DNA from: Alitta virens
Lineage: Eukaryota; Annelida; Polychaeta; Phyllodocida; Nereididae
Assembly (NCBI GenBank): GCA_932294295.1
Contig: OW028585.1
Coordinates: forward strand, 30,054,720-30,118,719
Reading direction: 5' to 3'
DNA length: 64,000 nucleotides
The first letter of the stretch is position 1. Every line of letters starts with the position of its first letter. The notes beneath the pieces are model-generated. The model saw only the letters and a program-made list of their open reading frames with translations, did no database searches and was not told the origin of the DNA. A program made the translations under genes and the position numbers. This document shows, one piece after another, positions 9,176-48,965 of this stretch.

Positions 9176-10167
9176 GCTTGACACTTTTCTATTCATTCCA
9201 TTGCTTGAATCATCACCTAACTCTTATATGCAGTGAAAAAACATCTGCTGTCATGAGTAATTCAATGGGCCCTCATATTTTTATGTAGTTCTTTTGTTAT
9301 CCGCAAGGTAGAATGTTGTGCGCGCCATCTGGAGTTTTCAATAGGTCCACTTTGCGCCATCTGGCGTTTTAGTTTTTCTTCCTTCAACGCCGAAGAGTCT
9401 TTTCAGACATTTCCACGTTTTGTGCCAGTGACAACTGCATAACAAGCCGGTAATTTATGTCGAATATCTGAAATATTAGCGCTCAAAATTTCAATGAAAG
9501 TCTTGAACTGAATTGTTGAAGTTATTCTAACTACCATAACATTTTAGTGGTTCTGATCATGGTAACTTCTCTTGAAATATGGCTTCTTTTCTGGATATGA
9601 ATGAAGAGACTTGCCCACATGTTGCAGTAGATTTGTTACTGAAAATTGCACAACTTATCTGAAAATTGTGTTATCTGTAATAATGGTGTTGTGAATATTG
9701 TAAGACAATCAAAGGAGCATTATGACAGCTTAATGGCAGGCTGTTGGCAGCTCATATTAGTTGTATATTGCCAGAGTACAGTAGTAGAGGCTAGATCATA
9801 AAATCAACATAAATATTAGTCCTACCATACATGGTAACCAGAATAAATCTTTGGGCTCAAGTCAACAGAAACCCGTGACGTCATATGCTTGGATGCAACT
9901 GATAACGTCACAACCAATTACTATATTTGTTTTCCTTATGTGTCGCCCTCAAATCCCCACTAAACATGCTAAACTACACGTTACACTAATTGTGTCAGAA
10001 CTAAAAGAGATGTCAAAATCACAATATACTTTAATAATAATAAACCGAATCACTACAATGTTACTACACCGTTGGCACTATTTAAGTTAATATTAGACTT
10101 GACCCAAATTCCATTATTTTATGATTTATTTTTAGCTTCTACCATTTTTTGTTGTTGTTTCTACCAG
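9176..10167. promoter_or_regulatory. Divergent AASDHPPT/OLA1 intergenic promoter region
   Basis: About 1 kb separates the AASDHPPT ATG (9175, minus) from the OLA1 coding exon (plus). The GCGCCATCTGG word occurs twice, at 9322-9332 and 9354-9364, 32 bp apart. Read on the minus strand it is CCAGATGGCGC, close to YY1-type or CTCF-type core words. The OLA1 ATG exon starts with an apparent acceptor at 10167, so a non-coding OLA1 first exon and the start sites of both genes probably lie here. No start site can be read directly. Confidence 0.5.
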
Positions 10168-10173
10168 GTCATC

Positions 10174-13100
10174 ATGCCACCCAAAAAGAAGGGAGTAGAG
10201 GAGAAGAAGCCCATTCTGATTGGTCGCATGGGCACCAATCTGAAATGCGGCATTGTAGGACTTCCAAATGTTGGGTGTGTATAATTTATATACCATCTTT
10301 GTGATTTTTTGTGATTTTATTGCTTTTAAAACTTTAAGTTTCTTCATGCTTATAGAATCTTATGAAATTTTCAGTGGGCAGGCAGTAAGCCAGTCACTGA
10401 TAAAGGTGAAGTGTTTAAAAGATTTTTTTAACATTAAATTCATTCACACACAACATTTCAGAAAATCAACTTTCTTCAATGTTTTGACAAAGAACAGCGT
10501 TCCTGCGGAGAACTTTCCTTTCTGTACAATCGATCCAAATGAGAGTAAGTCGAGACAGAATATTTTTGTCACTCACTAAATTATTTGTCTGGATTTCTAT
10601 GGCTTTGTTGCAAGACTACAAATTCCATTATTTTACATAAGGTGTTATTTATTTTACATTTCAAATTTTTCAGGCAGAGTTCCAGTACCTGATGAGCGAT
10701 TCGATTTCTTGTGTGAACACCATAAACCTGCCAGGTAGCTCTTATGTTTCGCAATTTTTTTCATAGAAAACAACATAGATGGAGTAGAGGAGTAGGCATA
10801 GTGATCTTAAAGTTCACCTGAGGTACTGGTACGTACAATGTAGAGTAAATCATAAGCTGAATGTGCAAGTCAAGCTTTGACCAATGAACCAAAGTTAACA
10901 GAACATATAAATTTTAATTAAACATTCTTTTCATAAATTTATAAAGCGGAAAAATTCTGGTTTTGCCACAATTTATAACTTTGCCAAATTGGTATTCTTC
11001 ATTCAAATATAACCACATTTGGGTCATTAAGGTCCTTAGACAGATGAACGTGTATTGTCAAAATAAATGACCTTTGGTGAAAGGTCAAGGTCACAATTGA
11101 CCTTAAAGTTTCATATTTTGAAGTTCCCTGTGTCTCTGTTTTCAGTAAAGTTTCAGCTTTCTTGAATGTCGTCGACATTGCTGGGTTGGTCAAGGGTGCC
11201 CATGAAGGCCAAGGTCTCGGAAACGCTTTCCTGTCCCACATCAAGGCTTGTGATGCGATTTTCCATATGCTTAGTAAGTATCTCAGTGTAAGGTGTCTAT
11301 GCTCAGGCAACTGAAGGGTGGCACCCATGAAATTAAATTAATGTGTAACATGGTATAACTCCAAAGCATGAGTTTTTCCATTCTTTACATTTGCCGCTGG
11401 CCTGTTATATATGGCGGGCTAAACTTTACAAGCAGATAGGAAGATGCATACTCTATTTGCCGTACAGAATTTGAGTTGCAAAGGAATGAACTAGCTTGAG
11501 AATGAAATGGTTTATGTAAGTAATGGATAATGAAAAATATCCTCTGAATCCTTTTGCTTGATAATTATGTCAGAGGGTCATGGACACTATTTTATTAATT
11601 TCTATGAGCGAGATTTAGTGCGATCTCAGGTGTACTGCCGCTTCCTCTTTTCAGCACTTAAGAAGCAAGTGCAAATGGAATAAGATTGAATAATTTTAAA
11701 TAGGCCTATGGTACATGATAGTGAAGAAATATTTTTAACACCTAGGATTACTTGTAATGTTGTTGGTAGAATGCAAATTGTAAATGTTTTACCATTATAT
11801 TAAACATTTCTCTCCCCAGGAACGTTCGTTGACGTTGAGGTGACGCACATAGAAGGAGACGTTGACCCCATCAGAGATATGGAGATCATCAACGAAGAGT
11901 TGCGGATGAAGGACATTGAATATCTCAGCAAAATCATTGAAAACTTGGAACGAACTGTCGTCAGGGGAGGAGACAAGACTCAAAAAGCTGAATATGTGAG
12001 AATCAGAATCTTATGGTTTAGTGCAGTATAGCGGACCCAAATTTATGACCATATTTGGCATCAAAGGAATATAAAATATATCACTATTTTGACTAAGTTT
12101 TGAAATATAAAAAATTAAATTTGATCGCCGTGATATGTTTGTGATGTCATCCATTGAAATATAGCATTTGACGTCATAAGCATAGCAACGAGGCATGCTT
12201 AATATGGTCAAAAATCTGGGATGGGCCATACTGCACTTTTTCCTGATCTTTTTACTGTCACTAAACTACTTATTAGTTCTTGGATTTTCCAGCTGGCAAA
12301 GACCGCCGTGCATGGAGCTGGCACAGCAACCTTTGCCCTGAATGGCTGTAATTTGTGTCGTTATTCAACAGAAACATATTGCACAATCAGAAAAGGCCTT
12401 TCCATATTTGCAATATAGTATTTAAAAAAAAAAAAAAACTATTGGGGTGTTAATTCTAAATCTGAAGCTGAGTCAGCTTGTATTACCAACTGCAGGCAGA
12501 TGTAATGATGAGATGATTGGAGTCCCGAAGTACATGTAGATATATACCCCATAGGTGGGGTCTTTTACATGTCTCAGCATAAACACTGAGTACAAGGCAC
12601 CACCAATTTAACATCTCATGCAACCATGGCGACAAGAGTAGACTCTTCGTGGAAGTTCAAAAGACAAAATGGTACAAAACTAGATTTCAACGAGTTTTTA
12701 TTAATGGTAAATAACTTGGAACTTGAACCTGCATTTATGCAATGTATATTTCCTCTTATGTCTGGTATTGTAATGAGGAAGGTATACAATTTGCAGATAT
12801 GTGACAAAATGGTATTAAGCTTAATGACAAATACACTTCTATAGTGTCTGCCAGCCATATTTAATGTACCTGTCATGGTTATTCATATTTCAATTTAATA
12901 CCTTGGCAAATAAAGTTGAATTGGAATATAGTTATTGTGATGGGGAGACTAACTTAAGAAAGAGAAGAATAGTAAACTCTTGATCTAGTAATACCAAAGA
13001 AACGGTCCATGGTAAAGCCGTGTACAGTATGATGAGTAAAATTTGTGCCACATGAATATACATGAAATCAATGAACTCTTATATGTGCTGTGCACTACAT

Positions 13101-17709: not shown

Positions 17710-20700
17710 CTACAGGTTTATGAAAATTGCAAAGAGGATTTGATAAAACATTTCCACACGCAAGCCTTCAATAAATAAATTTCCTTGTGTTAAGAAATAT
17801 GTCTCAGCAGATAAATGGGGTTTGCCAGGCATTCCACAGCAGTCTAACTGTGATCCATATTTCCGCGGTTTGCCAGGCATTCCACAGCAGTCTGACGGAA
17901 CCATATTTCCGAGATCCAATCGAACGAATTCACCTGCAAAAGTTTAAACGATAAAAAATTAAGAGGACAAGATTCTGTCTGAAACAATGCTTCCCTTGAT
18001 AATTCATCAAAGGCTAACAATAAAGGCAGGACTTTCTAAACGTTAGAATCCCAAACTATATCATTTTCGGTTGATAATATATACACACAACTTATATAAA
18101 AATAAAATAAAATTCCATAGGATACACATCATGTTCATGTTTCTTATAAGTTCATGAAATATTAGTCCAATGATACGATGCATATAATATTTTATTAAAC
18201 ACTGAATGTCATTTTAGACATAGGTAATCAACAATACAGGAACCAATTAAAAGTTACTTTGTAGAAATAGTTCCAGCCACCAAATTAGTATATTTGTTTA
18301 AAGTACAGTCAAAAAAAAAGAAGAAAAAAAGAGTCAACAAAATAGCTTTTCAAACACACGCTATACATATGCCTCCGTCAAAATATGCTTCAGAAGAAGA
18401 CACTGCCCCTCACATGTCATATAAAATTTAAGGACACATAGAATCAGCTAAAACATAAAAATTATGTTTGGTAGATGATTCCTTGTATATTCAACATCAG
18501 CATTTAAAAATAAATTTGCCGATCGACACCACTTGATAGTGAGTCAAAAGCTCCCTGGTGAGTTACAACCAAAGGATATGTCCCCCAATTCACAACCATG
18601 GTGCCATTGACTTAGAATCATGGAGCCAAAAAAGACATCAAGACGACTGAAAAAGTTCAGATACAGGCGATTATTCAAGTAAATGGATAGAAGAGGTTCC
18701 CCAGTCCATTTACTCGCTTAAAAAGACTTCAACATTTGCAACTACCAAGCCTAAGATTCCAAAGAACTCGAGGAGACATAATTAAAAGTTACAAGTTGCT
18801 TAATGGACTGACGAAGACGTGCAATTAACTCTCTTTTCAGGATGTCAAGAGGAAACGTTTTTAAGTTGTATAAAGAACAAACAAACAGTCTGGAACTTCT
18901 TAACTAGAGTCTATCGACGCTGAATCCAGAATGTGTTTTTACTGTTGTATAAATTGCAAATTACTGATACTGTCTCTCCACTGCAAATTGGTAAATATGA
19001 GATACCAAAGGAAATGCAAGAATTGAAAATACAAAAAGTAGAAAGTGCAATGAAATTAATGATTTGCTTTTACTAACTTTTTTGAACTAATTTGTTTCCT
19101 AACAAGTTGTTTATTTGGTTTTATATTATTATGACAGCAACTTTATTGTTATTATTGGACCTAATCTAGTTGAAGATATACCCAAGTCAAATTAATATAA
19201 AAAAATATCTCGGCGTCAGTACTGTTAACTCCATGTTCTTTTCCTCAGTATACAATCTAGGGATGAGATCATCAATAAGTTAAATAATAAGAAAGCATCA
19301 GGGCCAGATAACATACACATAAAAAACTATCAAAACTCCAGTAGGCATAGTGTCTCCGCTAATAAGTCAAACAGTAAATCAATTTTTCACTCAGGGTACT
19401 TATCCAGAACAGCTCAAAGTGCTGAAGAAAATACCCATACATAAAAAGAGTGAACTTATTAATCCCACATATTACAGGCCTATAAGTAATTTAAGATAAA
19501 ACTGAATTTGATAAATTAACCAAATGGATCTTCTTGCCTCAATTTTTGGTAATTTTTTCCTGTTCCCCTGAATTTATCTTTTGCCATTGTATTGATAATA
19601 CACTAAATATAAACACGGGAAATACTCAGCATATCATGGCTTGTAGAAAACAATATTTCCCGAGTAAGTATAATAGGGAATGCCATATATAGCTAATTAC
19701 TATATTTGTACCAGCAAAATATACAAAATTACACCGGCCTCTGAGTATCATGGGCTGTGCAAGTGACCCAAAAAGCACAAGTGATATAAGATCATATCAA
19801 TTTCAATAGCTAGCTGTCAAAAAAAAGAAGGAAAAGTACTCACAGAATTTCTGTCATTCCCCCTCATTTCTTATAAAAATGGGTGAGCTGAAAAGAAAGT
19901 ATCCATTTTATAATAACATATATTTATTTATTTAAATATATTTTAATTGGGTAACATGTGTCTGTTTTACAACAGGGCCCTGTAGATTAAAAATACAATA
20001 TATACCCATATAACACACAAGGATAAAATCATCAATAAAACATTCAGAATATAAGAACTTTTCTATTTACAATGGAAAAAGAATACATTTTGACCTTTCT
20101 TTTAAAATCATCAATTACTGTGCACTCTTCCATGTAATTGGGCAAATTATTCCATAGTTTTGGTCCCTGATAACTAAATGAAGCTTTAGTATTATTAATA
20201 TTAACATATGGAATCATAACATCATTCTCATTAACATGTTTGGTCAACCTTCCTGAAACTTCTATAGACATAATTATCTCACTCCAAGTAGTTCTGTTAT
20301 ACTGCTGTATACTATCATCAGTCATCTGATAGAAAAGCCACCACAGCGCAAAGGTCTCTATTTCTAGTTGATATTTATTAATTGGCACTGGATACGCGCA
20401 CTGGTCATGACGGCAGGGGGCAGGCGTCCTGAGGGGGTGGGCGTGACCACGTGACTGCCCTGCCATTGCTTCCACGTTCCATGCTTGCCGGTAGGCCTAT
20501 AAAAGTGTTCTTTTCACCAACTTCCTCGCCATAAATCTAATTATGAAGAACAGTTTGAGCTAACAACCTCACTGCCTGAGACAAACCATCATAGAGTCCC
20601 ACACACCCTAATTTTTCACTTTTTCTAGCTCAGCCCCAAGTGCCCAAGTCCTTCAGACCACATCCCTTTTGTCAAGATGGTACATAGTAATAGTATATAG

Positions 20701-26700: not shown

Positions 26701-28960
26701 TTTGTAGAAAAGTCATGTCTTTTTTTAAAATTCTTATAGTTTGGTAGGTACTCCGGAGATGTTTTTATTTTTGCTCATTCAAGGGACTATCGAAGGTTCA
26801 GAAAAATTCCGGTCGGGTAAAATTAAACAGAAATTTAATATATAGGCCTACAGTGTGCATATTGAAAGAAATATATTGGTTCATAATTTCTTTTTCTTTC
26901 TGCAAAATATTATTGTTGCGCATATATATAGAACTTGAAGTTAAACTGTGCAGAGGTGTTTTATCAGTTTTCATTGGTTAGAATTGTGCTCTGATTTTTT
27001 AAGGTTTATTTTGTACTTGCCCGTAGTGATGGCACTATTCGCTGATTCAAGGGACTATCGAAGGTTCAGAAAAATTCCGGTCGGGTAAAATTAAACAGAA
27101 ATTTAATATATAGGCCTACAGTGTGCATATTGAAAGAAATATATTGGTTCATAATTTCTTTTTCTTTCTGCAAAATATTATTGTTGCGCATATATATAGA
27201 ACTTGAAGTTAAACTGTGCAGAGGTGTTTTATCAGTTTTCATTGGTTAGAATTGTGCTCTGATTTTTTAAGGTTTATTTTGTACTTGCCCGTAGTGATGG
27301 CACTATTCGCTGATTTTAATTGATTATCGTCTGCAAAACAAAGTAACAGCCGATAATCAATGCTAGTGTTGAAAAATCGACAGGTGGCAGCACTAGTCTG
27401 TGTTGCCACCTATGAGAAAAACAAAGTCATTAAAGTTTGAACTTTGAGGAGTTAATGGTCTTCTTTGCATTTGTTCTCAGTCCATGGAAAAATAAAATCG
27501 ATTATCGCATCGAACAGCTTATCGAATACTCAATGTCAGTTTTGAGACCGACTTGCCATCACTATAAAAAAGGATTGAAAAATTGTAATGTAATTATAAC
27601 TTTCACATATATGCGAGTGTGGTTTATACATGTATGATATTTTGTTATTAATATGAGATGCTGCTTCAGCATCATTTTATTATTCATTCTACTTTTATTT
27701 GCATGTATCCTGTAGTCAATCAAAATGTGATGTAAAGTTTACTCCAACATTATAACAAATAAGATAATTGATAAGACTGTACGTGCGGTTCAACTTTAGA
27801 TTCTTCAAAATTTATATGCAATTTGATTATCGTTTAGTTTTACCCTAGTACAAATTTTGTCTATGTATAGTTTTAGTTCTGACTTGATGTATCAGTATTG
27901 ATATAGATCTATGTCATTTTGAAATAAACCATTGAAACAGATGAACAGTCCTTCAATAACATTTATTTGCATACATGTACAAAATTTAATGCAGATTTCT
28001 TTAATCAAATAATTATACCCATCAACTAACTGATCTATCTTTTGTGAATTGCACTTGTAGACTAGGTAATGATTGCAATTATCTATGGACCCCTAAGCCG
28101 AACCGACCATTTTGAAATTATGCCGAATCGACCAATGCAATGCCGAATCAACCTATATCTGAATGCCGAATTGACCCGACTTTTTCAATGCCGAACGCAC
28201 CGAATAAACCAAATTCGTAAAGATCCAATGATCCCAATATAAGTTATTCCAATTAACCCATCATGGGGTAATAGGCCTACCTCCATGGTAACAATACCAT
28301 GCAATACACATTCATGATTAGATGTTAATGTTAAGCAAATCTTATCACTAAATTTGAATTGTTGTAGATCTAGTTATTTTTATTTCAATTTAATTAAAGG
28401 CATTTCAATTTTTATTTTTTTTATTTTTTAGGCCTATCGATGATGAATGTATCTCACCATGAATCATGATGCCAAAATCGTCAATAAAATATGGCTTCTT
28501 AATGCATTCTTCATAAATACATATAGGCCTATACTTACATCCTTTGATAAAGTTCCTTTCCAATTTGAATATCAAGAAGCTCCAGTCTTGGATGTGCGTA
28601 ATGAGACTTAGCCAATTGCATTATTTCTTTAGATTGGATCAATCGCGCAGTCTCAGCATCACCTCCAACTTGGAGAAAGGATGTTTCAGATATGTTGATG
28701 TCAGATATTGAATCAGAATATGACAGAATTTGTTGTACCTCAGTTCGCTTCAGCCAACTTTTATATGAACCAGAGGAACCTTTCCAGAAGTAATTGGTTG
28801 CGAATTCTTCAGTGGGTACCAATCGTCGTACCATCTTGAAGCGTTTTCGAATTAAAATGTCATTGTAAACGGAGCATTTATCACTGGCATGCAACTCGGC
28901 CATAACTTCGCTCACACGCAGGATTTGGTCAGTATCGATGTCACTAGATCGATCAGACAT
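17710..28960 (-). CDS. Unrecognised multi-exon protein (about 488 aa)
   Basis: Six minus-strand exons join in one frame: 28960-28539, 25742-25602, 23923-23806, 23161-22757, 21492-21336 and 17933-17710, each with good splice signals and matching phase. The start is the first in-frame ATG (MSDRSSDID); the frame stays open upstream to about 29066, so the true start could be earlier. Residues about 40-70 (RKRFKMVRRLVP...NYFW) look faintly like a BSD domain, but the conserved FW pair is not intact. The middle has a globular stretch (PVWCELIAGF, KYLEMFSINCRPGDF) followed by an acidic/basic linker with a PAKKKRLS nuclear-localisation-like segment and many D/E/S. The C-terminal third (VIFITFTAQGS, LSILDAGDRKEINKMALQMA) looks folded. 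The last exon has an in-frame 48-nt duplication. I cannot name the family. The final exon may run on: its last residues (FYQILFAIFINL) could be intronic read-through. Confidence 0.6.
17819..17898 (-). repeat. In-frame 48-nt tandem duplication in the last exon of the unrecognised gene
   Basis: The plus-strand word GGTTTGCCAGGCATTCCACA occurs at 17819 and again at 17867, 48 bp apart. In the protein this doubles a 16-residue unit ending DCCGMPGKP. The two copies differ at only a few bases, so the duplication is fairly recent or under constraint. Confidence 0.8.
18700..18815 (+). pseudogene. Non-LTR retrotransposon ORF2 remnant (post-RT segment)
   Basis: Plus-strand frame reads RLQHLQLPSLRFQRTRGD followed by IIKSYKLLNG, the signature of the region just after the reverse-transcriptase core in LINE ORF2 proteins (R-L..L.L.SL..RR.RGD.I..YK...G). 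It is short and has no surrounding open frame, so it is a dead fragment. Confidence 0.65.
19262..19499 (+). pseudogene. Non-LTR retrotransposon reverse-transcriptase remnant
   Basis: Plus-strand pieces read DEIINKLNNKKASGPDNIH, then after a frameshift SPLISQTVNQFFTQGTYPEQ and finally YYRPISNL. The K.AGPD..P, F..G..P..WK and YRPIS blocks are the early reverse-transcriptase motifs of LINE-type elements. Frame breaks show it is inactive. Confidence 0.75.
20044..20310 (-). pseudogene. Non-LTR retrotransposon ORF2 C-terminal remnant (opposite orientation)
   Basis: Minus-strand frame contains KASFSYQGPKLWNNLPNYME followed by a CTVIDDFKRKVKMYSF-type end, the standard C-terminus of LINE ORF2 proteins (SF.YRG..LWN.LP......S...FK..LK). 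The 143-residue open frame extends upstream to 20475 without further clear motifs. It is antiparallel to the two plus-strand fragments, so it is a separate insertion or an inversion. Confidence 0.65.
20821..21146 (+). mobile_element. MITE-like family C, copy 1
   Basis: About 326-bp element beginning AATTGTGGATTTTCACAGAA and ending GCTCAGTGAAAAGACTCTAT. The two ends are imperfect inverted repeats (consensus AATAGTGGATTTTCACGG against AATAGAGTCTTTTCACTG). Interior words GGTGGCTATGACAGAATACT and TTTTTAGTGCATTTTAATGT are shared with copies at 25928-26243 and 32528-32847. Confidence 0.75.
21866..21879. promoter_or_regulatory. RFX X-box match
   Basis: GTTGCCATGGTAAC, a canonical palindromic X-box, in the intron between exons 4 and 5 of the unrecognised minus-strand gene. 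Confidence 0.4.
22344..22583 (+). mobile_element. MITE-like family B, copy 1
   Basis: 240-bp element with perfect 11-bp inverted ends TAGTGATGGCA / TGCCATCACTA and AT-rich sub-terminal blocks based on ATCGATTA/TAATCGAT. Shared interior: AGCCGATAATCAATGCTAGT, TTGAGGAGTTAATG, CAGTCCATGGAAAAAT. The short inverted ends suggest a hAT-like non-autonomous element (inference). Confidence 0.75.
23265..23580. repeat. ATCGATTA-rich inverted-repeat region
   Basis: Contains repeated TATCGATTAAAC, CAATCGATACC, CGATAATCG and, at the right, TCAATCGATATATCG and TACGTACCGAATCGTG. The arrangement is roughly palindromic (GTACCGGTTCACAATAT left, GTACCGAATCGTGTG right), so it is probably another non-autonomous DNA transposon remnant related in composition to family B. 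Confidence 0.4.
23945..24159 (-). mobile_element. MITE-like family A, copy 2
   Basis: 215-bp copy in opposite orientation: GTGCAGTAATAGCGGACCCA on the left and TGGGTCCGCTATACTGCAC on the right. The interior has TGACGTCACAAAC, shared (inverted) with copy 3. It lies in the intron between exons 2 and 3 of the unrecognised minus-strand gene. Confidence 0.75.
24178..24220 (+). mobile_element. MITE-like family C, terminal fragment
   Basis: Only the left end is present: AATAGTGGATTTTCACGGAA, GGTTAGCTATATTGTCACCAGG. It directly follows the end of a family A copy (24159). Confidence 0.6.
24448..24664 (-). mobile_element. MITE-like family B, copy 2
   Basis: 217-bp copy in reverse orientation with intact TAGTGATGGCA and TGCCATCACTA ends and the same interior words inverted (TTTTTCCATGGACTGAGAAC, TTGATTATCGGCTG). 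Confidence 0.75.
25065..25455. repeat. Inverted-repeat element with CGATTATCGA tandem motif
   Basis: Left part has four CGATTAT/CAATTAT units (ATTATCGACGATTATCGACG near 25100-25120); the right part has TAATCGATAATCGG, CGATTAATCGATGAAAAAAA and TTCCTAGCTCTAGTA, which loosely mirrors CACTAGGGCACGGCG on the left. Probably a decayed MITE. Not present elsewhere in the window as a full copy. Confidence 0.4.
25928..26243 (-). mobile_element. MITE-like family C, copy 2
   Basis: 316-bp copy in reverse orientation, from AATAGAGTCTTTTCACTGAG to AAAAATCCACTATT, in the first intron of the unrecognised minus-strand gene. No coding capacity. Confidence 0.75.
26318..26440. repeat. GGTCCATTCGGCAT motif cluster
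   Basis: Words TGGTCCATTTGGCAT, TTGGTCCATTCGCCAT and TTGGTCCATTCGGCAT recur within about 60 bp, with TTCGGCATAAAAGG just before. The inverse cluster (ATGCCGAATCGACC, ATGCCGAATCAACC, ATGCCGAATTGACC) lies at 28090-28210. Confidence 0.6.
26777..27312 (+). repeat. 268-bp tandem duplication
   Basis: Two directly adjacent units, 26777-27044 and 27045-27312, read identically as far as I can follow (ATTCAAGGGACTATCGAAGG through ATGGCACTATTCGCTG). Each unit ends with the first bases of a family B element (TAGTGATGGCA). Such identity in non-coding DNA means a very recent event or an assembly artefact. Confidence 0.85.
27292..27564 (+). mobile_element. MITE-like family B, copy 3
   Basis: 273-bp copy, longer than the others because of a roughly 40-bp insertion near 27380-27420 that is itself partly palindromic (AGGTGGCAGCA ... 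TGTTGCCACCT). Ends TAGTGATGGCA/TGCCATCACTA intact. Its left end also forms the right edge of the 268-bp tandem duplication. Confidence 0.75.
28090..28210. repeat. ATGCCGAATCGACC motif cluster (inverse of 26.3 kb cluster)
   Basis: Five or so spaced repeats: AAGCCGAACCGACC, ATGCCGAATCGACC, ATGCCGAATCAACC, ATGCCGAATTGACC, ATGCCGAACGCACC. It is the mirror image of the cluster near 26.3-26.4 kb. Together they could be the sub-terminal repeats of one element of about 1.9 kb. Confidence 0.6.
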
Positions 28961-29242
28961 ATCACTTAAGTAGCCTGGAACCACAGTATCCCATATTGGG
29001 ACATTCGTGAGCTGAGGAGGGGACCGACTTTCGTTCGCCGCCCTCGCGCTCGCCTCGAAACTGGTGTCAGTGTAAACAGTAAACTGCGGGCCATGCAGAC
29101 TCTGTGAATTATGCGGACACGCTTACTGTGACCATAGAAAACTTCATTGCTAATACAACAAAGTACAGATTATACATGGTCAACACTAATTTTCTTTGCG
29201 AATCCGCTCAACCACGCCCCCAGCGTTTACGTGATTATGGCA

Positions 29243-32242: not shown

Positions 32243-35200
32243 ATGACTGAATCAAATGTTACTCAGCAAAATTACATTTCCCTGAATTTAACAAATCATT
32301 ATGCTCGGAACTGGGGAACATGGGAAGGTGTCAGAGAAATCGTCCAGAACTGGCACGATGGGTTATATGAAGCGATGGAACAAATGAACATAAATGGACA
32401 GATTGTATTCAAACAGGTAACAACATAATATAATACCGTGGGATTAAGATAACTGTACAGCTCTGTTAATTGTTACATACATGATAACGAGGTTGTCATC
32501 CACTTTAGCACAAGACGGTTGCCAACTAATAGTGGATTTTCACGGAAGGTTCTCTATATTTCTACCAGGTGGCTATGACAGAATACTGCAATTCTATTGG
32601 CTGAAAAAGTTCCCTCCCTTGCCTGTGATTGGCTAAGGCAACGTGCATCCTAGCAGCAGTATTTTTAGTGCATTTTAATGTATATTTGACATCTTATCAT
32701 TTAGTTGATTTCTGTTATTTCCAAGATAAATTATATTGAATCAGTTAATAATGACCTACTATGTCTGAAAAGCAAAATGAGTAATAAGAGGGAAAGAAAG
32801 AATTATGTCTTGCTGAATTCAGGGCTGCTCAGTGAAAAGACTCTATTGCGGACAGCCTTTTAAAATATACCCAAGGTAATTTACTGAGTATTGTTTTTTC
32901 TGTCTTTGTAGTTGTGCATGGTCATGGTCATAGAAACATTTGATAAAATTAGATTATAAACTTTCATTTTGAAAACTTATATGATGGTGTATATAACCAA
33001 TTTTTAAATTCATTCTTTTGGCAGCATGGAGCCGAATATTTGGCCTACGCATCTGACAAAGAAAATGAACATTCACAACGCCAGTTACTGGGATTCATTC
33101 ATTACGACTGGCTGACGGAAAAGCTATTTCTTATAAACAAACACACATCTTTGCAACGGAAAATTCTGTTGCTAGGATACAGCAAAAAGGCTTATTCGAA
33201 GTCTGTGATTGGTCAATTTGGCGAAGGATTGAAAGTTGGTGCTCTGGCATTGGTTAGAGAAGGTCGAGATGTTACCATGACGACTGGGAAAGACCTTTGG
33301 AAATTTCAACTGCGGAAAGATGAACAGTTGGGTGAACAAGTCCTCACCGTGCAAGTTAGAGAGAGGGATGTCAAATCAACTGAAGGTATTTTCAGCAGGT
33401 ATGGCTCTAAAGATACCTGCCAATGATACTGTAATATGTGGTTAAAAAAAAATTTGTACAATAAAAGAGATCAATACATATTTGCGCTATAATTACTCTG
33501 GATGTCGTTTGGATAAGACGTTTAATTGGTGGTCCCTTGTACTCAGTGTATATGCTGAGGCAAATAATAGATCCCACCCATGGGGTAAATGTGTAACATG
33601 GGTGGACTCTTCATCTCTTGCCTCATCAATCAACCCTCGATAGCGACAAGAACTTGCCTTAGAGGGCTGCACTTCCCATATCTATCTATCTGTCTATATT
33701 TATTTCAGTGAATTTTTCCTGTGGGTAGATGCGCTGAATTAATTATTCCAACCCCTTTGTGAGGATTTTGCCTTAAAGCTCTTTAAATGTTGCGTAAAAC
33801 TAATACTTAAGTTTTGTACTAAGTAAGTTTTTTATTTTGTATAATTTTTTTATAGAGAGTTGCAGCCTGAGGATACGTTTGTCAGAATTACTTTGGAAGA
33901 AGAAAAATGGAAAAATGTGGTAAATAATTCAATTATTCATATATACAGTATGCAAAATGAATTTACTTGTTTATTCTCGTAAAGATTATTATTATTTAAG
34001 TGCACGATGTGAAACTACTTTTTGTGAAAAATAACTCAGTGAAAATAATCGTCAAAGATAAAATAGTTTTACATGGTAAAACTCAGCAAATCCGGGCGAT
34101 TGATTAATCATGTTAAAGAACAGATCAAATGATGAGCTCAAGGCCTATATTTTATAGAAAGTCTGTGTGATTAATGTAATTGTCTTATCAATGAATTCTT
34201 ACAGTGGTTTTTACACTTTTAGAGAAAGAAGTTTCTATTTTTGCACCCACCAAAAGATTATGTCATCTCCGAGATAGGTGAGCGAAATTCAGAATTTTAA
34301 TTTTACACATTCAGCAGCATATTATTTTTACACAATGTAATATGTATGCAACGTATACCTATCTTAACAAACTAATTAATTCTGTGCTTTTGTATTCTTT
34401 AAGTATACAATTCATAATTCTTATTTTACATATTCAGCAGTATACAATTTTGCGCAATGAAATGTGCAATGTATACGTATCTTAACTAATAATCTATCTG
34501 GTTATTTGTATGCTTGTAAGTATCGAGCCAGATTTTATGCTAGGTCAGTCCAACATTGACCCAACATTTGCCTGACATCGATATGATGTGGGGGGGGGGG
34601 GCTAGCTCAGTGGTAGTGCGCTGGGCTTCCAACCACTGTGTCCTGGGTTCAATTCCCGCTCGAGCCTCAGTTGGATGGCTGTTTCATCCATCATCTCATT
34701 GGCATGGTCCCTGCCTGTCCTAATTAGCCAATCAGGTGCTGAAGTACAGAACGTTAAGCCCTAATTCACCACCACCACCACCACATTGATATGACGTACG
34801 TCTGCGACACCTGGCCGATGTCTTGCCGATGTGACAATTTAAGCTGTAAATTAATGTTACAATTCTACTGCAGGCCGGTTATTACTTGACGAAGAACTCA
34901 GAGGTCAATTGTTTGTGAAGGGAACTTGGGTAGCAGACCATTCAAAAGAAGACTTGTTCGCCGGCGTTGATTTTGTCAACTTAAACATTGACCGGGATCG
35001 AAATGCGGTGCCAAAACCAAGTGAAATTGACCACATGGTATATATATTATTATAACTTATATATTAATGCTTTGATGGCCCAGAGGAAATTTAAAGTGTG
35101 GCTCGGGCAAGTGATAATTGGAGGAAAATTACATTTAATATATACACCTTCACTTGCAAGTGATAGTCGATCAGACTTTCGGGCGAGCAAATAAAAGATT

Positions 35201-38200
35201 TACATCAAGCCCTGATTAAAATAATTGTAAATGACTCAAGTTATTCTATTCTAATTTATTTATTACATGTAAGGTTTCATTTATTCACAAGTCAGTCGTG
35301 ATTACACATTAACGCATAGAATAAAAAAAAGATTAACTGGGCATGCATCCCTTGTACTCTGTGTCTATGCTGAGGTAAGTAAAAGACCCCCCATGGGGTA
35401 AATGTGTAACATGGGTGGACTGCTCCTCTCTCTCACCTCATCAATCAACACTCGATAGTGGAAAGAACTTGTCTCAGAGGACTTCACTTCCCATATCTAT
35501 CCATCTATCTTAATACTTACTATCGATCTATCTTACTATCTATCTATTCTATCTATCTATCTATCTATCTGTCTAGCTGTCTGTCTGTCTGTCTATCTAT
35601 TCTATCTATCTATCTATCTGTCTAGCTGTCTGTCTATCTGTCTATCTACAATTCCTAGGCTTGTTGTATTCTTTAATGATAGCTTTATTATAATTGAAAT
35701 ATCGGATATTTTTCAGGTTAGTTGTATGTGGATGCAAGCTCTCAAGACTCGGCCAGATCTTATTGAGAAATATTTCGATCTTTTAATGAATGGGTAGGTG
35801 CATTCTACTGGTGGATTTGCTGATGTAGTTTCCATAATCTTAATCGCTATTATTATTGTGGGTGAATAATTTGAACAGTCTCAAAAAAAAAAAAAAAGCA
35901 GTGCTTTGTTTTCTTTAAATTGAATAAATAGTGAGCTATCTTGATTTTCAGGAATTACAGAGATGTTCGACAAGCCCTTGTATTTAGTGATCATGAGAAT
36001 CTGGATATCATTTCCCAGTATTTCTTTGAGTAAGTTTCTTGATGTCACTAATAAGCGTGATAAGTTACTTTGAATTATCAATGGTATCTCGTACATAAAG
36101 TTCTAACAGAAGGAGACGGTCGTACTACTGTTTGATGAAATCATCGCAATGACCTGATTGAATGATGACATCATCAAACAATGGTTTGGAACGTCTTGCT
36201 GGTGGCTCCCTCTGGTAGTAATGAGATGCTCGTTACTTTCAAATAATTGAATTAAAGCAAAATGAGAGTGGGCCAAGTCTATTGCATTCACTTCATTGTC
36301 TTCTTAATACTGATTACCTACCATCCAGAGCCTTGCTGGGTTCACTATCTGTCTATAAAATAAATAAACTTCACCTTGTATTTAATTTTTCTTGCCAATA
36401 AAAATCCAATATGTAAACAAACCAAGTGGGTGATGATGCCATTTCCATTGTATTTCCAATGTTTTGGTCTTGATTTAATATATCATTTGTTTTTTGTAAT
36501 TAATGCCTGATAGATTCATTAGCTTACACATATTTAGTGTGCCTTGATCAAAGAAGGTGATTTTCAATCATTTGAGGAAGTTATAGAAAATTTTAATTTT
36601 GACAGACATTGGAGCTTCAAGAAAGTTTGCCTTAAAATATATTTATTAATGATGTCATTAAATAAATGTGTCTATCTCATGTTTATCTGACCATTGGACT
36701 GTCAGGTGTATTTATGGATGTACGAGTTAAGTATTTCTTGTTTTTACTAAATTCTCTTTCTTCCTACAGTCTCCATGGATCACAGGCCTATGCAGTTTCA
36801 CCAAATGCGACTGATGACGACTTGAAAGCTTTACGTGATACGCTCCATAAAAAGGTTGGCGTTCGCTTAAAATCTATATTTCATCATATTTTGCCTTTTG
36901 TTATGTAATGACAGTTATAAAGGACTAGACATGGTTGAATTTCACATTTAGCGGTCAGCTAGACAGTGACCATTTTGTTTGTGTGCGCTGTATCTACTTA
37001 AAATGGAATTATATACAAGTCCCCTTCCCTCCTTCCCTCCTTCCCTCCTTCCCTCCTTCCCTCCTTCCCTCCTTCCCTTATCTTCCTTCCCTTGATCTTT
37101 CTTCCTTCCCTCCCTTCCTCTCTTCCTTCCTTCTGCATATTTTCCTTTTCTTCAACTTATATTTACTGGTGCATAATTCTTTATGATTGTTCTTTAACTG
37201 ATTATTCCAGATTGTTATATGCAATGAAACAATTCTACGCATACTCCTTGACTCGGGATCTCAAATTCCACTCAACAAACTAATGTCCGGTACTTCAAAG
37301 CGGGAATCCACATCAACGAGGATCGTTCCATTCATGGAACTGATTAATGAGGAAAGAGACATCCTCCGTCATGCCATGAAAATGATAAATTCAAGTCAGA
37401 TTGGGACTTTCCAGCTTGAGCAAGTTGATGTTTTGGATATTGATGGTTCAAAGGAGGTATTGAAGCGCACTGAATTTAATTATCCATAGTGTTATATCTT
37501 GTACTGTTAATTTCCAAATCATTAGGTAACAGTTATGTATGTTATATAGTATAAACAAGAACCTGAGCAGCAGCTATATACCCCATCTCCTAGCACTTGG
37601 CAAGGAGGGATATCCTTCGTGGCAGATCGGTTAGATATGCAGGGTAAAGCTGCTCATGAAAGTTAGGACTGGGCACATTACATTCCTTCAAAATTGAACT
37701 TAAAATTTGTCAATCTCCAGTTCTTGTCTAATATCTCTATGCTGCTGCGTCTGAATCATAGCCAGCTTATATGACCAGATGTAATGATGAGATGATAAGG
37801 ATTGGAGTCCATACCATTTTACACATTTACCCCTTGGGTAGGGCCTTTTATTTGCCCAAGTGTTCATTTTCTAGTCATGTTTTCGTGTTTGTTAATAATA
37901 ATGGTAAAATTTTATATTTTACAGAAAAGTGGAGTGCGTCTCCATGGCGACAGGATGCAAGTGCCTCGTTGGATGTTAAATAAAGAAGTTGTTCACAAAA
38001 CTGTTCATGGTGGAAAAGTTTTGACTGAAGCCCAACAGGTTTGTGTGCACTTTATGACATTGAGAAAGTAACTATTTTGATCTAAAACTGTACAATGCAA
38101 CCCCAAGGCCCAAACCCCACCCACAGGTATATCATTGTGCATCAGTGTTAAGTTAATTTGGGTGCGAGTCCGAAACCTCACCCACAGTTACCCTCAGATA

Positions 38201-41200
38201 TTTAGACGTGTCACCATATCATTCAACTATTAAGTAATTTAATTTCTTTAAAATGCATCCATTCATTCTCAGCACTTTTGTAATTTATTTAATCTATATA
38301 TATATATATCTTAGGGTTTAGTGCAGTATAGCGGACCCAAATCTATGCCCTTATAAATGTGGCGTCCATTAAAAATTAAATTTTTTATCAAATATTTCAC
38401 AACTTTGAAGTTCTAGCACAATTAAAATAACATTTGGTGTAGAATAGCGGGGGTTTGGGGGCTGTAGCCCCCTAGAAAAGCAAAATAAACTCTTGTCTTT
38501 ACCTAAATATGAAAACCGCCGTCATAACTAGATCAGTTTGTGACGTCATAAATTTATTTCAAGCACTTTTACGTCATAGGCCAGGCGAAGAGGCTCGTTA
38601 AATATGGTCAAAAATCTGGGTCCGTTATACTGCACTTTTTCCATATATTATTCAAATATCATTTGTGTTATTATTTTTTCTTATCATCTATAAGTATTGT
38701 ATAGAAATGTACTCTTTTATTCTTGCAAAAGGGCGACAATTACGGTGTTAAAAAAACTCTTTTGTGTGTCCCAACCTATTTTCAAATTTCAAATAAAGCA
38801 TTTCCGACTCGTAACTGTTTTGTTTTTATAAATAAAAATGTCGAAATAAAATCAATGTCAATGTCCACCTTACTGTTAAGACCATTGAATTTTGATCAGT
38901 AGAAATGTAATCTTGAGATTACGCTGTGTTTCTGTTATAGATCGTAGGATTTCGTCTGCGGCATATGTCTCATTTGTGTTTATCATAATTTTGTTGTTGT
39001 TGTCGTTTTCAGTGTCTCTGCGCTGTGACTCACTTAGCTCTTTGCCTGGTGAACAAAAGCCCCCAAAGACTCAATTTGACAGGGTATGACAAACTCAGAG
39101 AAAATACTGGTACAGCTGGCTGGGTTTTTAACTTACTGTTTAACATGGCTAACCAGGTAAGCGGCACAAGTTTGCGAAGTAATTTACTGAAGTATGGAAA
39201 TAATTACGAAATGTACTATCTTAACTTTGATATATATTGAAATTGATGCATTTGCGTTTCTAGTGTAAATGGGGTCATTTGGATGCAAGATTACTATAGT
39301 TTTTTTTCCTCAAAAGTATATTTGACACTTTCTTTATTTTGATGCACCTTTTGTGAGATTTTGAACATGATCAATTTCTTGATGTGTAACAATTTTGAAT
39401 GACTTCTTGTCTATGTCGCTGTCATAATTATTTTAAGGAGATATTGATATGTCGCAATTTCAACGATTTCTTATCAATGCCATTGACATAATGTTAGAAC
39501 TTGAACAATTTTCAGACATCCTCTCCCTTAAACACCCGCTTTTGGTTTTTTGACAGACCCCGACCCTTCTTTGTTCTCTTTTTTTCTCTTTTGGAGAACC
39601 CGTCCCCCCCCCCCCCCCCCCCCCTTTTATTTTTTTTTCAAAAAAATGTCCTTTGCATCCCCTCCCCTTTTTAAATGGAATAGCCCTTACTATACTTTGA
39701 AAATAAGCTAAGTTTGGTATCATATTTATTAAAAAGGTCTGTGGATCAGCCAAAAAGTTCTGCATTGAATTGCATCAAGCACCTACCCCAGGTGTCGCCA
39801 CTGATCATGCTGAATGTGTGAATCGGGAAAAGGAATACCAAAGAGAACTTGCAACTTTGAATGTAAGTAGGGAATTATATTTGTTGCTTTCAGTGAATTT
39901 TTGTGAACTATTATTACCGTCAAGTTTGTTTTCTCTTGTTGTAATTTAGACGCATTTACTTGTCGTGAAATAAACTAGTAAACTAGCTATTGAATTATAA
40001 TGTTTCCACATATCAGTGATTGCAGCTGACTAGAAAAACTTAATCATTGCTTTTGTGGACTCCAAGCCATGCCATCTCGTCATGACGTATGCTCCTAGTA
40101 GATATGTCAGCCGACTATATGCTTCAGCCTTGTAGAAAGAATGGAAAAAATGCAGTATACATTTATTTCACAGGAGAGAATGGAAAAAATTCAAGAATCA
40201 ACGAGCAAAGAAATGAAGTCCGTGCAAGAGCACATCAAAGAATTGGAAAACGAACTGGTTCAGTGGGAATTGAAATTAATGAATGGCGAGGAAAAACTAA
40301 AGAAATACTACGAGAAAGAATTTAGTTTGGAAAAAGTAAGTTGTTTGATGTATGCTATTTCAGAGGTTATTGAAATCAGAGATGTGATTTGTTTAAAAAA
40401 ATGATATTAAAAGATAAATAAAAAAATATAAGAACATTTTTTTTCTCCCCAGCGTAAATTTTTTTTCTCCCCAGTGTTAATTTTATGTCGGATGAAATTG
40501 TAACGAGCTACAAAATATTTCATTTTCATTTTGTTTTTCTACTCACTTTTATAAATATTTCTGTTATGTATTTTGTTATTTAGGAAAAACAGAACGACCT
40601 TGTCCAAACAATTGAATACTGGAAGAAAAAATGCTCAGAAGAAATGAATCTGGTTAGTATCAATTATACTGTATCAATTATTATACTATGATATTAACTT
40701 ATGTATTACTAAGAGGTTTTATTTGATCCGTCACTATAATAAAGATGAATTGATTTGCTAAAGGGGTATACTGTATTTAGTGTTATAATTTTCCCAGTTA
40801 TTTTTGCTTTGGCAAGTTTTGATGATAATCGACAAACAAACTTTGTGACCAAATTTTTTTGATGATGATTGACAAAACAAACTTTGTGACCAAAAAAAAA
40901 ACTTATCAGCTCTTATCATGCAGTAAAGATTTGACAACTGTATCATTGATAAATTGGTGATATTAATTAACAAATTTAAATTCGATGAAGTCAACAGTAG
41001 CCATGCATGTTCATGTAAAATTAGAAAATAGTAATTTTGACAGACAGTGGAGCTGTTTAATAGAGGGGTAAAACAATGAAAATCCGGTCTGGTGGAATTG
41101 GAATATTGTCGCCGTTTACAGCAAGTGATCGTTCTAAACGGATGACTGTGATCACGGGTTTGACTGTATTTAGAATTGTAGATATTGGGGGAAAAATTTT

Positions 41201-42360
41201 TATACAATGCATTTTTTATTGTGGCTATTTATTATTTTATTTTCAACCGGAACAGAGAGAAGAAATGCAAGATATATTCACGAGAAAGGAGAGAACACTT
41301 CTGGAAGAATTGAATCATTATGTAAAAGAATGTCAGAAAAGGTAACCAGTGAAAGTTAATTTTAAGACCGCCGAACTATTGACCCATTAAATTGTGGACT
41401 GATAATATATCACCATTGTAATTTGTCTCAAGACCCCCAGTAAATAGTTAAAAAAAACTCAAGTGGCAGCATAAGTGAATGGCCAAATGCGGAGTGAAAA
41501 AACTTAGCAGCTGCCATTTTTATTTTACTAGTAGATTATAGATTGTATACACTAGAGTAGATATAGACGCCAGACTTGGTTTTGTAATGTTGTATGTTTT
41601 GTATGTTTGTTTTGTGATGTTAGATGACACATGTATCAATTTCTGATATCAAGTTTGTCAATAAAACTATATATATATAGGTTATTATAATGCTCATTTT
41701 CATGTAAAATTGCAAATATATGTATCTGAATTTGGATTGTTACTTAATTGACCACTAAGTAAGAGCACCTTTTCCTGTAGTTCAATCAATAATTGACCAC
41801 TTGTGCTCTCAATTATTACTTTTCAATAGTTCTGAAAAAATTCAGGATTTATGTGATAATTCTTCAGGACGGATGCATTGCAAATATTTATGGGTGGGCA
41901 AGCAGCGGCAGCAGGTGACCAAATCAGTGGAATTGGCATACTTCAATTACAGGAGTTGATTAAATCAATATCAGAAGATTTACAGGTAGTGACAATTATA
42001 AAGAGATATTTAAATTACTGACATTTTTTATTTTTTAGCAAACTAACAAAAATTGTCATAACATAAACAAATCATCAATCATAGTGACAATCATTCAATC
42101 AATCATTCTTAGTCATTCATAGTCATTCATAGTCATTATCATCAATATACATGATCATGGTTAAAGAGTACTTTGTATCTTTTCAGGAATCCCACTTCAT
42201 GTGTAATGTCTGCTTCCAGCACCGCAAAACCCACATGTTCCTCGATTGCGGACATTATTCTTTTTGTGAAACATGTGCAAGTCAACTGTTTACCTCAAGT
42301 GTTCCTTTATGTCCGCTATGCAAATGCGACATTACAAGAGTTATCAGAATTTATGAATAG
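32243..42360 (+). CDS. GHKL (Bergerat-fold) ATPase - coiled coil - RING finger protein, complete
   Basis: Seventeen exons with GT-AG borders and consistent phase give 769 residues: 32243-32416, 33025-33398, 33856-33919, 34223-34277, 34874-35037, 35717-35793, 35952-36029, 36770-36854, 37211-37456, 37925-38038, 39013-39156, 39737-39862, 40174-40335, 40584-40652, 41256-41341, 41868-41985, 42187-42360. Residues 32-40 (EIVQNWHDG) match the GHKL N-box ExxxNxxDA/G. GQFGEGLKVGA at 121-131 matches the GxxGxG lid loop. The usual DxGxG box is not obvious; LFLINKHTSL (92-101) lies where it would be expected. Residues about 555-672 are charged and heptad-like (coiled coil). The last 57 residues form a C3HC4 RING: C718, C721, C733, H735, C739, C742, C754, C757, of the compact IAP/MDM2-like type. 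Predicted role (inference): an E3 ubiquitin ligase whose shape or assembly is switched by ATP, as in MORC or HSP90-like clamps. An in-frame TGA at 32189 supports the ATG if the leader is unspliced. No name known to me. Confidence 0.85.
32528..32847 (+). mobile_element. MITE-like family C, copy 3 (GHKL-RING intron 1)
   Basis: 320-bp copy from AATAGTGGATTTTCACGGAA to GTGAAAAGACTCTATT, lying between the first two coding exons of the GHKL-RING gene. Confidence 0.75.
33510..33690 (+). mobile_element. SINE-like family 2 copy, variant 3' end
   Basis: GGTGGTCCCTTGTACTCAGT, ATGCTGAGGCAAATAATAGA, CCCATGGGGTAAATGTGTAA, then a variant tail TCAATCAACCCTCGATAGCG, ACAAGAACTTGCC, ending in ACTTCCCATATCTATC. 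The same variant tail is at 35.4-35.5 kb, so at least two subfamilies exist. It lies in an intron of the GHKL-RING gene. Confidence 0.65.
34589..34782 (+). mobile_element. tRNA-Gly-headed SINE, near full-length copy
   Basis: Begins with a G run, then an A box (TAGCTCAGTGGTAG), a glycine-like anticodon loop (CTTCCAA) and a B box (GGGTTCAATTCCC), followed by the family tail. Imperfect flanking repeats ACATCGATATGATG (34575-34588) and ACATTGATATGACG (34783-34796) look like a decayed target-site duplication. Its 3' end has a CACCAC repeat. It sits in an intron of the GHKL-RING gene. Confidence 0.85.
35345..35515 (+). mobile_element. SINE-like family 2 copy, variant 3' end
   Basis: CCCTTGTACTCTGTGTCTAT, GAGGTAAGTAAAAGACCCCC, ATGGGGTAAATGTGTAACAT, then TCAATCAACACTCGATAGTG and ACTTCCCATATCTATC. 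The tail runs straight into a TATC/GTCT microsatellite, as if the array grew from the element's 3' end. Confidence 0.65.
35505..35650 (+). repeat. (TATC)n/(TGTC)n microsatellite
   Basis: Tetranucleotide array of CTAT and CTGT units with small interruptions (CTATTCTATC, GTCTAGCTGTC), in an intron of the GHKL-RING gene, adjoining the end of a SINE-like copy. Confidence 0.9.
37020..37130 (+). repeat. (CCTTCCCT)n microsatellite
   Basis: Pyrimidine-only run of CCTTCCCT units followed by degenerate CTTCC repeats, just upstream of the exon starting at 37211. Open frames across it are low-complexity artefacts. Confidence 0.9.
37745..37860 (-). mobile_element. SINE-like family 2 copy, partial
   Basis: Minus-oriented: CAGCTTATATGACCAGATGT, AATGATGAGATGATAAGGAT, TTGGAGTCCATACCATTTTA, CACATTTACCCC, GGGCCTTTTATTTGCCCAAG. 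It lies just upstream of the exon at 37925. Confidence 0.6.
38321..38635 (+). mobile_element. MITE-like family A, copy 3
   Basis: 315-bp copy, about 100 bp longer than the others; the extra interior includes GGGGGTTTGGGGGCTGTAGC. Same terminal inverted repeats (GTGCAGTATAGCGGACCCA / GGGTCCGTTATACTGCAC). Similarity to copy 1 continues a few bases outward (GGTTTA before, TTTTTCC after), so the true element is slightly longer. Lies in an intron of the GHKL-RING gene. Confidence 0.75.
39604..39688. repeat. Poly-C run with MITE-like right end
   Basis: A run of 21 C followed by T/A-rich sequence and CTTTTTAAATGGAATAGCCC, which resembles the right end of the inverted-repeat element in the OLA1 3' UTR. 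The left end is not recognisable. Intronic in the GHKL-RING gene, just before the exon at 39737. Confidence 0.5.
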
Positions 42361-47450: not shown

Positions 47451-48574
47451 TAAACTTATATTATTGTCTGTTTTGTCTATTGATATGTATTCCAGTTACT
47501 TGTGAATTGGAAAGATAAATAAGTCCCACCCCATCTGTAATTCTTGGTACTTTGAAGTCTACTTGCGATAATGGATGTGTGATGGATGTAAGGGATGTTA
47601 TTTCCACCTGTCACCGCTTGGTGGCTCACTTGTTGAGAAGGAGATTAATGAGGTCACTGTAGGTGGCGCCCTTGTTGAAAGGAATCGTATCATGTTAAAC
47701 CAGTTTGAAATTGGTGGCAGAGCTAAAAGAAGACAACTCAGTATTTCTTATTAAGTGAGTTTATGAAATTTATTTACTGAATCATATTAAAAATAACCAA
47801 AACAAAAATTTAAGTGATTATGTCGATTTCTCGTGAACATGTTAATCGAATGAAGTGTAGCACGGTGGTCACGACTTTCATTTGAAAATGTTATGAAGCA
47901 GTTTTTGAAATACATATATTTTTGTCATGAGAGCATTGAAATATTGCATATATCTTAACAATATAAACCCCTTTTTTACAGTTGTACATTTTAATTCTTA
48001 AAAGGCATTATTCACCTTTAGATCTAATATTGCCACTCAAACTAAATGATATATATATTTAAACTTCCAGGGATTATATTATGTCTCGAGTAGCGATTTT
48101 AATTAGGAACTTGGTTTTATGCAAGTGAGTTATAAATATAAAAGTAGAAGTTACTTAAAGTCATGTTTTACCTTTAGTCTGATTAGATAATTGAAAAAAC
48201 ATAATTGCAAAAATGAATATATATATAATAAATTGGTTATTGATAAATATTAAATATACAATCAAATGAAATAATCTATTAGTAGATTAAAGGAATTAAT
48301 AGAATTTTGGCTAATTGAGATGGCATGTTGTTGACCTAATATATTGCTAATGAGTAATAGTTCAATGCTAGTGTAAGCCAAGGGGCACCTGTATAGCCCC
48401 TTCTACAGACAGAAGGGCACCACAGACCACCCCAGGGCAGACCTTGGGCAGACGGAGGGGTTCTGAGTGGACAATACCCAGACATTGTGGGTCCAAGATC
48501 CAGGCAGGGTAGACTGTGAGGGCCCAGGATGACCTCTGATTGTGATAACGGTGTCTTTGTATTGAGAGATTAAA

Positions 48575-48755
48575 ATTGAGGAGAGGAGAGGAGAGGAGAG
48601 GAGAGGAGAGGAGAGGAGAGGAGAGGAGAGGAGAGGAGGGGAGGGGAGAGGAGAGGAGAGGAGAGGAGAGGAGAGGAGAGGAGAGGAGAGGAGAGGAGAG
48701 GAGAGGAGAGGAGAGGAGAGGAGAGGAGAGGAGGGGAGGGGAGGGGAGGGGAGAC
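48575..48755 (+). repeat. (GAGGA)n pentanucleotide microsatellite
   Basis: About 36 units of GAGAG/GAGGA, with GGGGA variants at 48638 and near the right end. The plus-strand frame of 70 codons across it (RRGEE repeats) is an artefact. Confidence 0.95.
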
Positions 48756-48796
48756 TTAAAGAATTTGAAATTTACTGTCGGAAAATAAACAAATTA

Positions 48797-48965
48797 GGAT
48801 AGGATAGGGTTTGGGAAATTAGGATAGGATAGAATAATAAAAACAGCAGAACAGGTTAGGATAGGATAGGATATAATAGGATAGGGAATTAGGATAGGAT
48901 AGGGTAGGACAGGATAGGGATTTAGGAAGTTGTAATAGGATAGGAGAGGATAGCATGTGATGGGA
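48797..48965 (+). repeat. (AGGAT)n pentanucleotide repeats, interrupted
   Basis: Clusters of TTAGGATAGGATAGG-type units separated by short spacers. A different pentamer from the adjoining GAGGA array, possibly derived from it. Isolated AGGATAGGATAG recurs at 50040. Confidence 0.85.

Follow-up and report, generated by a model that had tools for sequence, protein, structure and literature searches.

A divergent Bergerat-type module and a C-terminal RING in one chain of Alitta virens: a candidate nucleotide-gated ubiquitin ligase with phage-type relatives

Introduction

RNF213 combines an ATPase and a ubiquitin ligase in one chain, with an ATPase of the AAA+ rather than the Bergerat fold; the likeness drawn here is one of architecture. 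IAPs, MDM2, MEX3C and IDOL, E3 ligases with a dimeric C-terminal RING, have other N-terminal domains and are not known to carry a Bergerat module. Here we describe a gene of the polychaete Alitta virens that lies in a 64,000-nucleotide stretch of contig OW028585.1 (the window) and encodes a 769-residue protein in which a Bergerat-type N-terminal module is followed by a coiled coil and a C-terminal C3HC4 RING. Literature searches aimed at proteins with a Bergerat fold and a RING in one chain returned none among open-licence papers, and the statement in an earlier note on this sequence that no characterised metazoan protein has this order was not contradicted by them.

The earlier note proposed an ATP-switched E3 ligase, an interpretation that our analysis partly supports. 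It had not seen the kinship with phage proteins, the lost peptidase motif or the aromatic tail typical of dimeric RINGs. We propose, with a probability of about 0.5, that the protein is a dimeric RING E3 ubiquitin ligase gated by nucleotide, and that it descends from a phage-type clamp protein with a zinc peptidase. Sequence comparison and structure prediction support the three-part architecture and its conservation, a Bergerat-type fold, a RING with features of the dimeric type, kinship with phage proteins and loss of the HExxH motif.

A conserved three-part architecture

The seventeen exons proposed earlier do join into a single open reading frame of 2310 nt (769 codons and a stop). All 16 introns are GT-AG, the acceptors are mostly pyrimidine-rich, and a polyadenylation signal (AATAAA) lies at 42841. 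A tblastn search found no second copy of the gene within the window.

A search of about 5.8 billion proteins, in which only about 8000 candidates were scored, returned 63 relatives. The top relative, from Haliotis rufescens, is 37% identical over 99% of the length (E 3e-143, far above chance). The transducer region is the best conserved between the phyla: it is 64% identical in these two proteins, against 47% for the Bergerat-type region, 44% for the RING, 31% for the middle region and 23% for the stalk. Named full-length relatives with a RING include those of Haliotis, Lottia, Pecten, Mizuhopecten, Ylistrum, Branchiostoma, Oculina, Glandiceps, Ptychodera, Dysidea and Oopsacas. Argopecten, Corticium and three EukProt entries (P0071, P0072, P0080) came in through a profile search. 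The RING is present in P0071 and P0072, the latter bearing a name in the style of an assembled transcript. In P0080, from the dictyochophyte stramenopile Florenciella, it starts normally and then diverges as if by a frameshift.

The order of Bergerat-type module, coiled coil and C-terminal RING is thus found in molluscs, amphioxus, hemichordates, a coral, sponges and EukProt protists. By motif search the RING lies near the end of 37 of 78 eukaryote-type rows, the window protein included. Many rows of about 500-600 residues have no RING, and many of these look like single-exon predictions on coral-type contigs. No vertebrate, arthropod or nematode is named among the 63 relatives and the best 120/150 rows, most of them nameless, of searches that each scored about 8000 candidates; we do not claim absence from these groups. 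Judged by sequence, the architecture is that of an old, unstudied family and not a lineage oddity.

The N-terminal module

The N-box residues E32, N36 and D39 and the GQFGEG lid at 121-126 lie exactly where the earlier note had placed them. When 43 eukaryotic rows (window protein included) are aligned with 17 phage-type rows, the N-box Glu is kept in 39 of the 43 (four gaps), the Asn in 42 and the Asp in 42 (one gap), and each in 17/17 phage-type rows. The lid positions G121, F123, G124, E125, G126 and K128 (G121xFGEGxK, the G2 motif) are identical in all 43 and all 17, as is a DRDR motif in the transducer-like region. The N-box and the G2 lid are present and the G1 box DxGxG is not, so we term the protein a divergent Bergerat-fold homologue rather than a proven GHKL ATPase.

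The Bergerat-type N-terminal half claimed in the earlier note is recovered by some methods and missed by another. At E<=5 the window protein matches none of Pfam's HATPase families, and NCBIfam offers solely a sacsin-type N-terminal domain under its cut-off. The module becomes visible instead through the phage family phrog_6077 in PHROGs (2.5e-33, aa 12-309), through relatives and through predicted structure. Models of two relatives, as opposed to the window chain itself, have a Bergerat fold with a transducer-type domain. In the Haliotis model, which has the fold whose absence the earlier note had named as a refutation, the N-terminal half is HSP90-like and matches HSP90 N-domains by structure comparison. 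The closest folds to this half in the models are HSP90 paralogues, GyrB and MORC, and a Bergerat fold with a transducer-like domain is predicted to be common to the family and to HSP90, TRAP1, GRP94, GyrB and MORC. Unlike HSP90 and MORC, the family has neither an HSP90 C-terminal domain nor a MORC CW zinc finger (no Pfam match to either the HSP90 family or CW in the window protein at E<=5), and it carries Asn in place of the adenine-binding Asp.

The coiled coil and the RING

The earlier note placed a coiled coil at about 555-672. It is present and appears to be longer than stated: in the predicted model of the Haliotis relative a single helix runs from 553 to 711, and window residues 554-712 contain no proline.

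The C-terminal RING was called correctly. It matches zf-C3HC4_3 (PF13920) above the cut-off, at 8.1e-10, and has all eight C3HC4 zinc ligands; a six-frame genome search lists its exon independently (C13:30096915-30097061). RNA folding of this last exon gave nothing (z -0.66). By structure comparison the predicted RING of the Haliotis relative resembles those of MEX3C, MDM2 and cIAP, and the family is like the IAPs, MDM2, MEX3C and IDOL in both RING fold and tail. Among the 37 RING-bearing members, 36 have the linchpin Arg or Lys and 35 a hydrophobic E2-contact residue (Lys and Val in the window protein), and every one has an aromatic residue, in one case Trp, within the last five positions. 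Donor ubiquitin is stabilised in cIAP1 by two residues from the tail of the partner, Arg614 and Phe616, a mechanism that PMC6349121 gives for dimeric RINGs with a tail Phe or Tyr. The window tail R-I-Y-E matches the Arg/Phe spacing of cIAP1.

Kinship with phage proteins and a lost peptidase motif

Besides the window protein, the Haliotis relative, a sponge member and a protist member also match phrog_6077. A profile of 12 animal rows aligns with a profile of 60 phage-type rows at probability 100 and E 5.4e-68 over 399 columns, extending to the phage peptidase motif. The proteins of phrog_6077 and their HExxH-bearing relatives, whose function is unknown, have the N-terminal 300-400 residues in common with the eukaryotic family, including the N-box, the Asn for the DxGxG Asp, the lid and DRDR. 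The two kinds differ at the other end, where phage-type proteins terminate in an HExxH domain without RING or coiled coil and eukaryotic members have both and no HExxH.

This zinc-peptidase motif lies within the last 40% of 153 of 157 phage-type proteins (P0059, P0062, P0169 and P0225 are without it), and 144 of the 157 have an additional His downstream. It occurs in 0 of 78 eukaryote-type rows, window protein included, of which P0039 and P0085 are not long enough to reveal it; the phage-type class was set by length and family, not by taxonomy. In the profile alignment phage LVHEVAH falls on animal EAVHTEM. At that place the window protein reads VHKTVH (aa 462-467), with Lys replacing the catalytic Glu, in a residue register that is uncertain, as the alignments disagree. 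Of 60 phage-type members scanned with Pfam at E<=1, 39 matched HATPase_c, 26 HATPase_c_3, 12 SprT-like (best 5.4e-4) and 5 M48, mostly under the cut-offs. No zincin was listed among the structure-alignment rows of a phage model, an uninformative result as the C-terminal domain was not folded alone. At the former peptidase site, the eukaryotic middle region has recurrent CxC and CxxxH motifs, frequent though not universal, which could form a new zinc site.

Among isolated phages there are 111 matching records, 38 of them from Vibrio and 16 from Pseudomonas phages, and the proteins in four inspected phage regions measure about 363 to 381 residues. IMG/VR yielded 125 relatives, of which 80 were kept; 32 of the 80 match to residue 413 or further, 7 of these on contigs longer than 200 kb. 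Bacterial and archaeal genomes contributed 17 loci, 8 in Pseudomonas, and plasmids 3 records. The eight Pseudomonas genomes (L014-L019, L023, L024) have a short form of the gene, perhaps in prophages. A search of viral contigs with the animal profile found two distant relatives only and no RING-bearing copy. The most widely shared phage gene neighbour matches phrog_1221, of unknown function, and gives no functional hint.

T4 rIIA is likewise a phage protein with an N-terminal GHKL-type domain and a variable C-terminal domain (PMC7824862). A place for it in the same family is weakly supported, its match to the phage-type profile having probability 17 and E 0.0015 over 73 columns. Relatives of phrog_6077 in two phage records (L009, L010) are labelled 'RIIA lysis inhibitor' despite this weak match. 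Searching a paper on the origins of MORC (PMC2292703) for RING, zincin and rIIA gave nothing. An assignment to a defence-system family was discarded: PADLOC returned only partial, weak TmtA hits for phage-type rows (best 8.1e-7) and a coiled-coil hit, likewise weak, for P0001.

A quick maximum-likelihood tree, unrooted and with Shimodaira-Hasegawa-like approximate likelihood ratio test (SH-aLRT) values but no bootstrap, was computed for 29 eukaryotic and 36 phage-type rows. The eukaryotes all lie to one side of a branch with SH-aLRT 95, and the animals group together (SH-aLRT 98). The window protein falls in a group of 7 rows (SH-aLRT 98) with those of molluscs, amphioxus and hemichordates. 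P0062, P0063 and P0059 have long branches. The simplest reading of these sequence relationships is a passage from a phage-type source into early eukaryotes, followed by vertical descent.

Proposed mechanism and alternatives

In the mechanism that we propose, the Bergerat-type domain would bind a nucleotide, shut its lid and pair with its counterpart on a second chain. The DRDR of the transducer would sense the phosphates, by analogy with HSP90, GyrB and MORC, and the coiled coil would keep the two chains together. The two RINGs would form a dimer like those of IAPs and MDM2, as RING type and tail suggest, each aromatic tail bracing the E2-ubiquitin held by the partner. Substrate may be held by the clamp together with the middle region that replaced the peptidase. 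If this is true, closure of a nucleotide-driven clamp controls ubiquitin transfer, unlike in AAA+ ligases of the RNF213 type, and the family offers a traceable case of a phage-type protein-cutting module becoming a eukaryotic protein-tagging module.

Several observations weigh against this proposal and the descent that goes with it. The column of the adenine-binding Asp of DxGxG holds Asn in 43/43 eukaryotic and 16/17 phage-type rows, and D79N in yeast Hsp82, the same change, is the standard nucleotide-binding-defective mutant (PMC10148809). Prediction of the lid is poor in the Haliotis model (residues 118-123 below 50 in the predicted local distance difference test; predicted template modelling score 0.61). 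The heptad score of the window stalk is reached by 12 of 500 shuffles, weak to modest taken alone, and that of P0071 by 51 of 500. The Arg or Lys that, in cIAP1 fashion, precedes the tail aromatic by two positions is present in only 19 of the 37 RING-bearing members. Only 5 of the 111 isolated-phage records cover 80% of the 444-aa query, so isolated phages mostly carry the shorter form. The direction from phage to eukaryote is not proven, as the tree has no root, was built by a quick method and contains the long branches P0062 and P0063.

The earlier note had remarked that DxGxG is not evident, which holds (Asn96 in the window protein), and its caution about ATP proves apt: the Asn weakens the ATP part of an ATP-switched ligase. 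It also feeds the main alternative, a pseudo-ATPase scaffold: having lost nucleotide binding, the Bergerat-type domain would provide a constitutive RING ligase with a fixed dimer or a platform that binds proteins. Along with the Hsp90 mutant and the missing Pfam HATPase match, loss of the DxGxG Gly positions in eukaryotes (K97 H98 T99 S100 in the window protein) speaks for such a scaffold. However, the catalytic Glu, the Mg-type Asn, the lid and DRDR are near-invariant from phage-type to animal proteins, which is hard to explain without phosphate chemistry. Phage-type rows carry the Asn too, which makes it an ancestral trait of most of the family and not a late decay; the canonical box pattern fits 1 of 157 phage-type rows, and P0063 carries DEGAGI. 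We hold the scaffold to be unlikely. A clamp with a natural Asn and otherwise intact catalytic parts may read adenine in another way or, as the Asn is found throughout, use a different nucleotide. The conserved Asn permits a direct and cheap test of which nucleotide this natural 'D79N' clamp uses.

A clamp of the HSP90 or MORC type that acts chiefly as a chaperone or chromatin factor, and in which the RING serves dimerisation or localisation rather than E3 activity, appears quite improbable. It would accord with the predicted folds nearest to the N-terminal half, and MORCs commonly have coiled coils and zinc modules; the near-complete retention of E2-contact, linchpin and tail residues in the RING argues against it, as does the Pfam result for CW and HSP90. 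That two adjacent genes, or a transposon-borne RING, were joined by eye is extremely improbable and we reject it: RING exons are numerous in the genome (60 matches in the six-frame search), but the 17 exons share one phase-consistent frame, and the fusion is no gene-joining artefact because full-length relatives of the same order, one with a transcript-style name, span many phyla, in line with the single gene of the earlier note and against its other refuting outcome, two halves from different genes.

Returning to the nucleotide-gated ligase, a more speculative and rather doubtful extension is that an early eukaryote adopted a phage device with an HSP90-like clamp to hold proteins and a zinc peptidase to cut them, the peptidase decayed, and stalk and dimeric RING took over destruction by tagging the held proteins with ubiquitin. 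The clamp would perhaps be switched not by ATP but by another nucleotide, for instance a guanine or signalling one; the protein would then be a nucleotide-sensing ligase, possibly in antiviral defence.

Gene features and surroundings

Table 1 Features of the gene in window coordinates, with the basis of each assignment
Feature	Position	Strand	Basis
Whole coding gene, 17 exons, 769 aa	32243..42360	+	Joined frame, splice sites
Exons 1-4, Bergerat-type N-terminal domain, ~aa 1-222	32243-32416, 33025-33398, 33856-33919, 34223-34277	+	phrog_6077 match, Haliotis model against HSP90 N-domains
N-box codons E32, N36, D39	32336..32359	+	Alignment
Asn96, at the adenine-binding Asp position of DxGxG in classical members	33136..33138	+	Alignment
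Glycine lid GQFGEGLK, aa 121-128	33211..33234	+	Alignment
Exons 5-6, transducer-like region, ~aa 223-302	34874-35037, 35717-35793	+	TRAP1, GRP94 and GyrB alignments extend across the region
DRDR, aa 262-265, candidate phosphate-sensing motif	34990..35001	+	Alignment
Exons 7-9, middle region, aligning with the domain upstream of the peptidase motif in phage-type relatives	35952-36029, 36770-36854, 37211-37456	+	Profile alignment
Exons 10-11, counterpart of the phage-type HExxH domain, motif lost	37925-38038, 39013-39156	+	Motif search, alignments
Exons 12-16, coiled-coil stalk	39737-39862, 40174-40335, 40584-40652, 41256-41341, 41868-41985	+	Haliotis model helix 553-711, heptad score
Exon 17, C3HC4 RING (aa 717-764) and aromatic C-terminal tail RIYE	42187..42360	+	Pfam, genome search, tail motif, structure comparison

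Upstream of the gene, exons at 467-1824 (+) match Guanylate_kin (2.4e-21, 5.6e-6) and probably belong to a MAGUK-type or guanylate kinase gene. They are followed by exons of an AASDHPPT-type phosphopantetheinyl transferase at 7015-8638 (-) (PF22624 6.5e-22; ACPS 7.4e-5, under the cut-off) and by GTPase exons at 9973-12028 (+) (MMR_HSR1 7.7e-6) that are OLA1-like by eye. An open stretch at 20047-20496 (-) looks by eye like the end of an element of the long interspersed nuclear element (LINE) type and has no Pfam match at 0.01, and a 195-residue open stretch at 28538-29122 (-) has no Pfam match. Downstream, a GGAGA-type simple repeat at 48371-48800 gives rise to long repetitive open frames.

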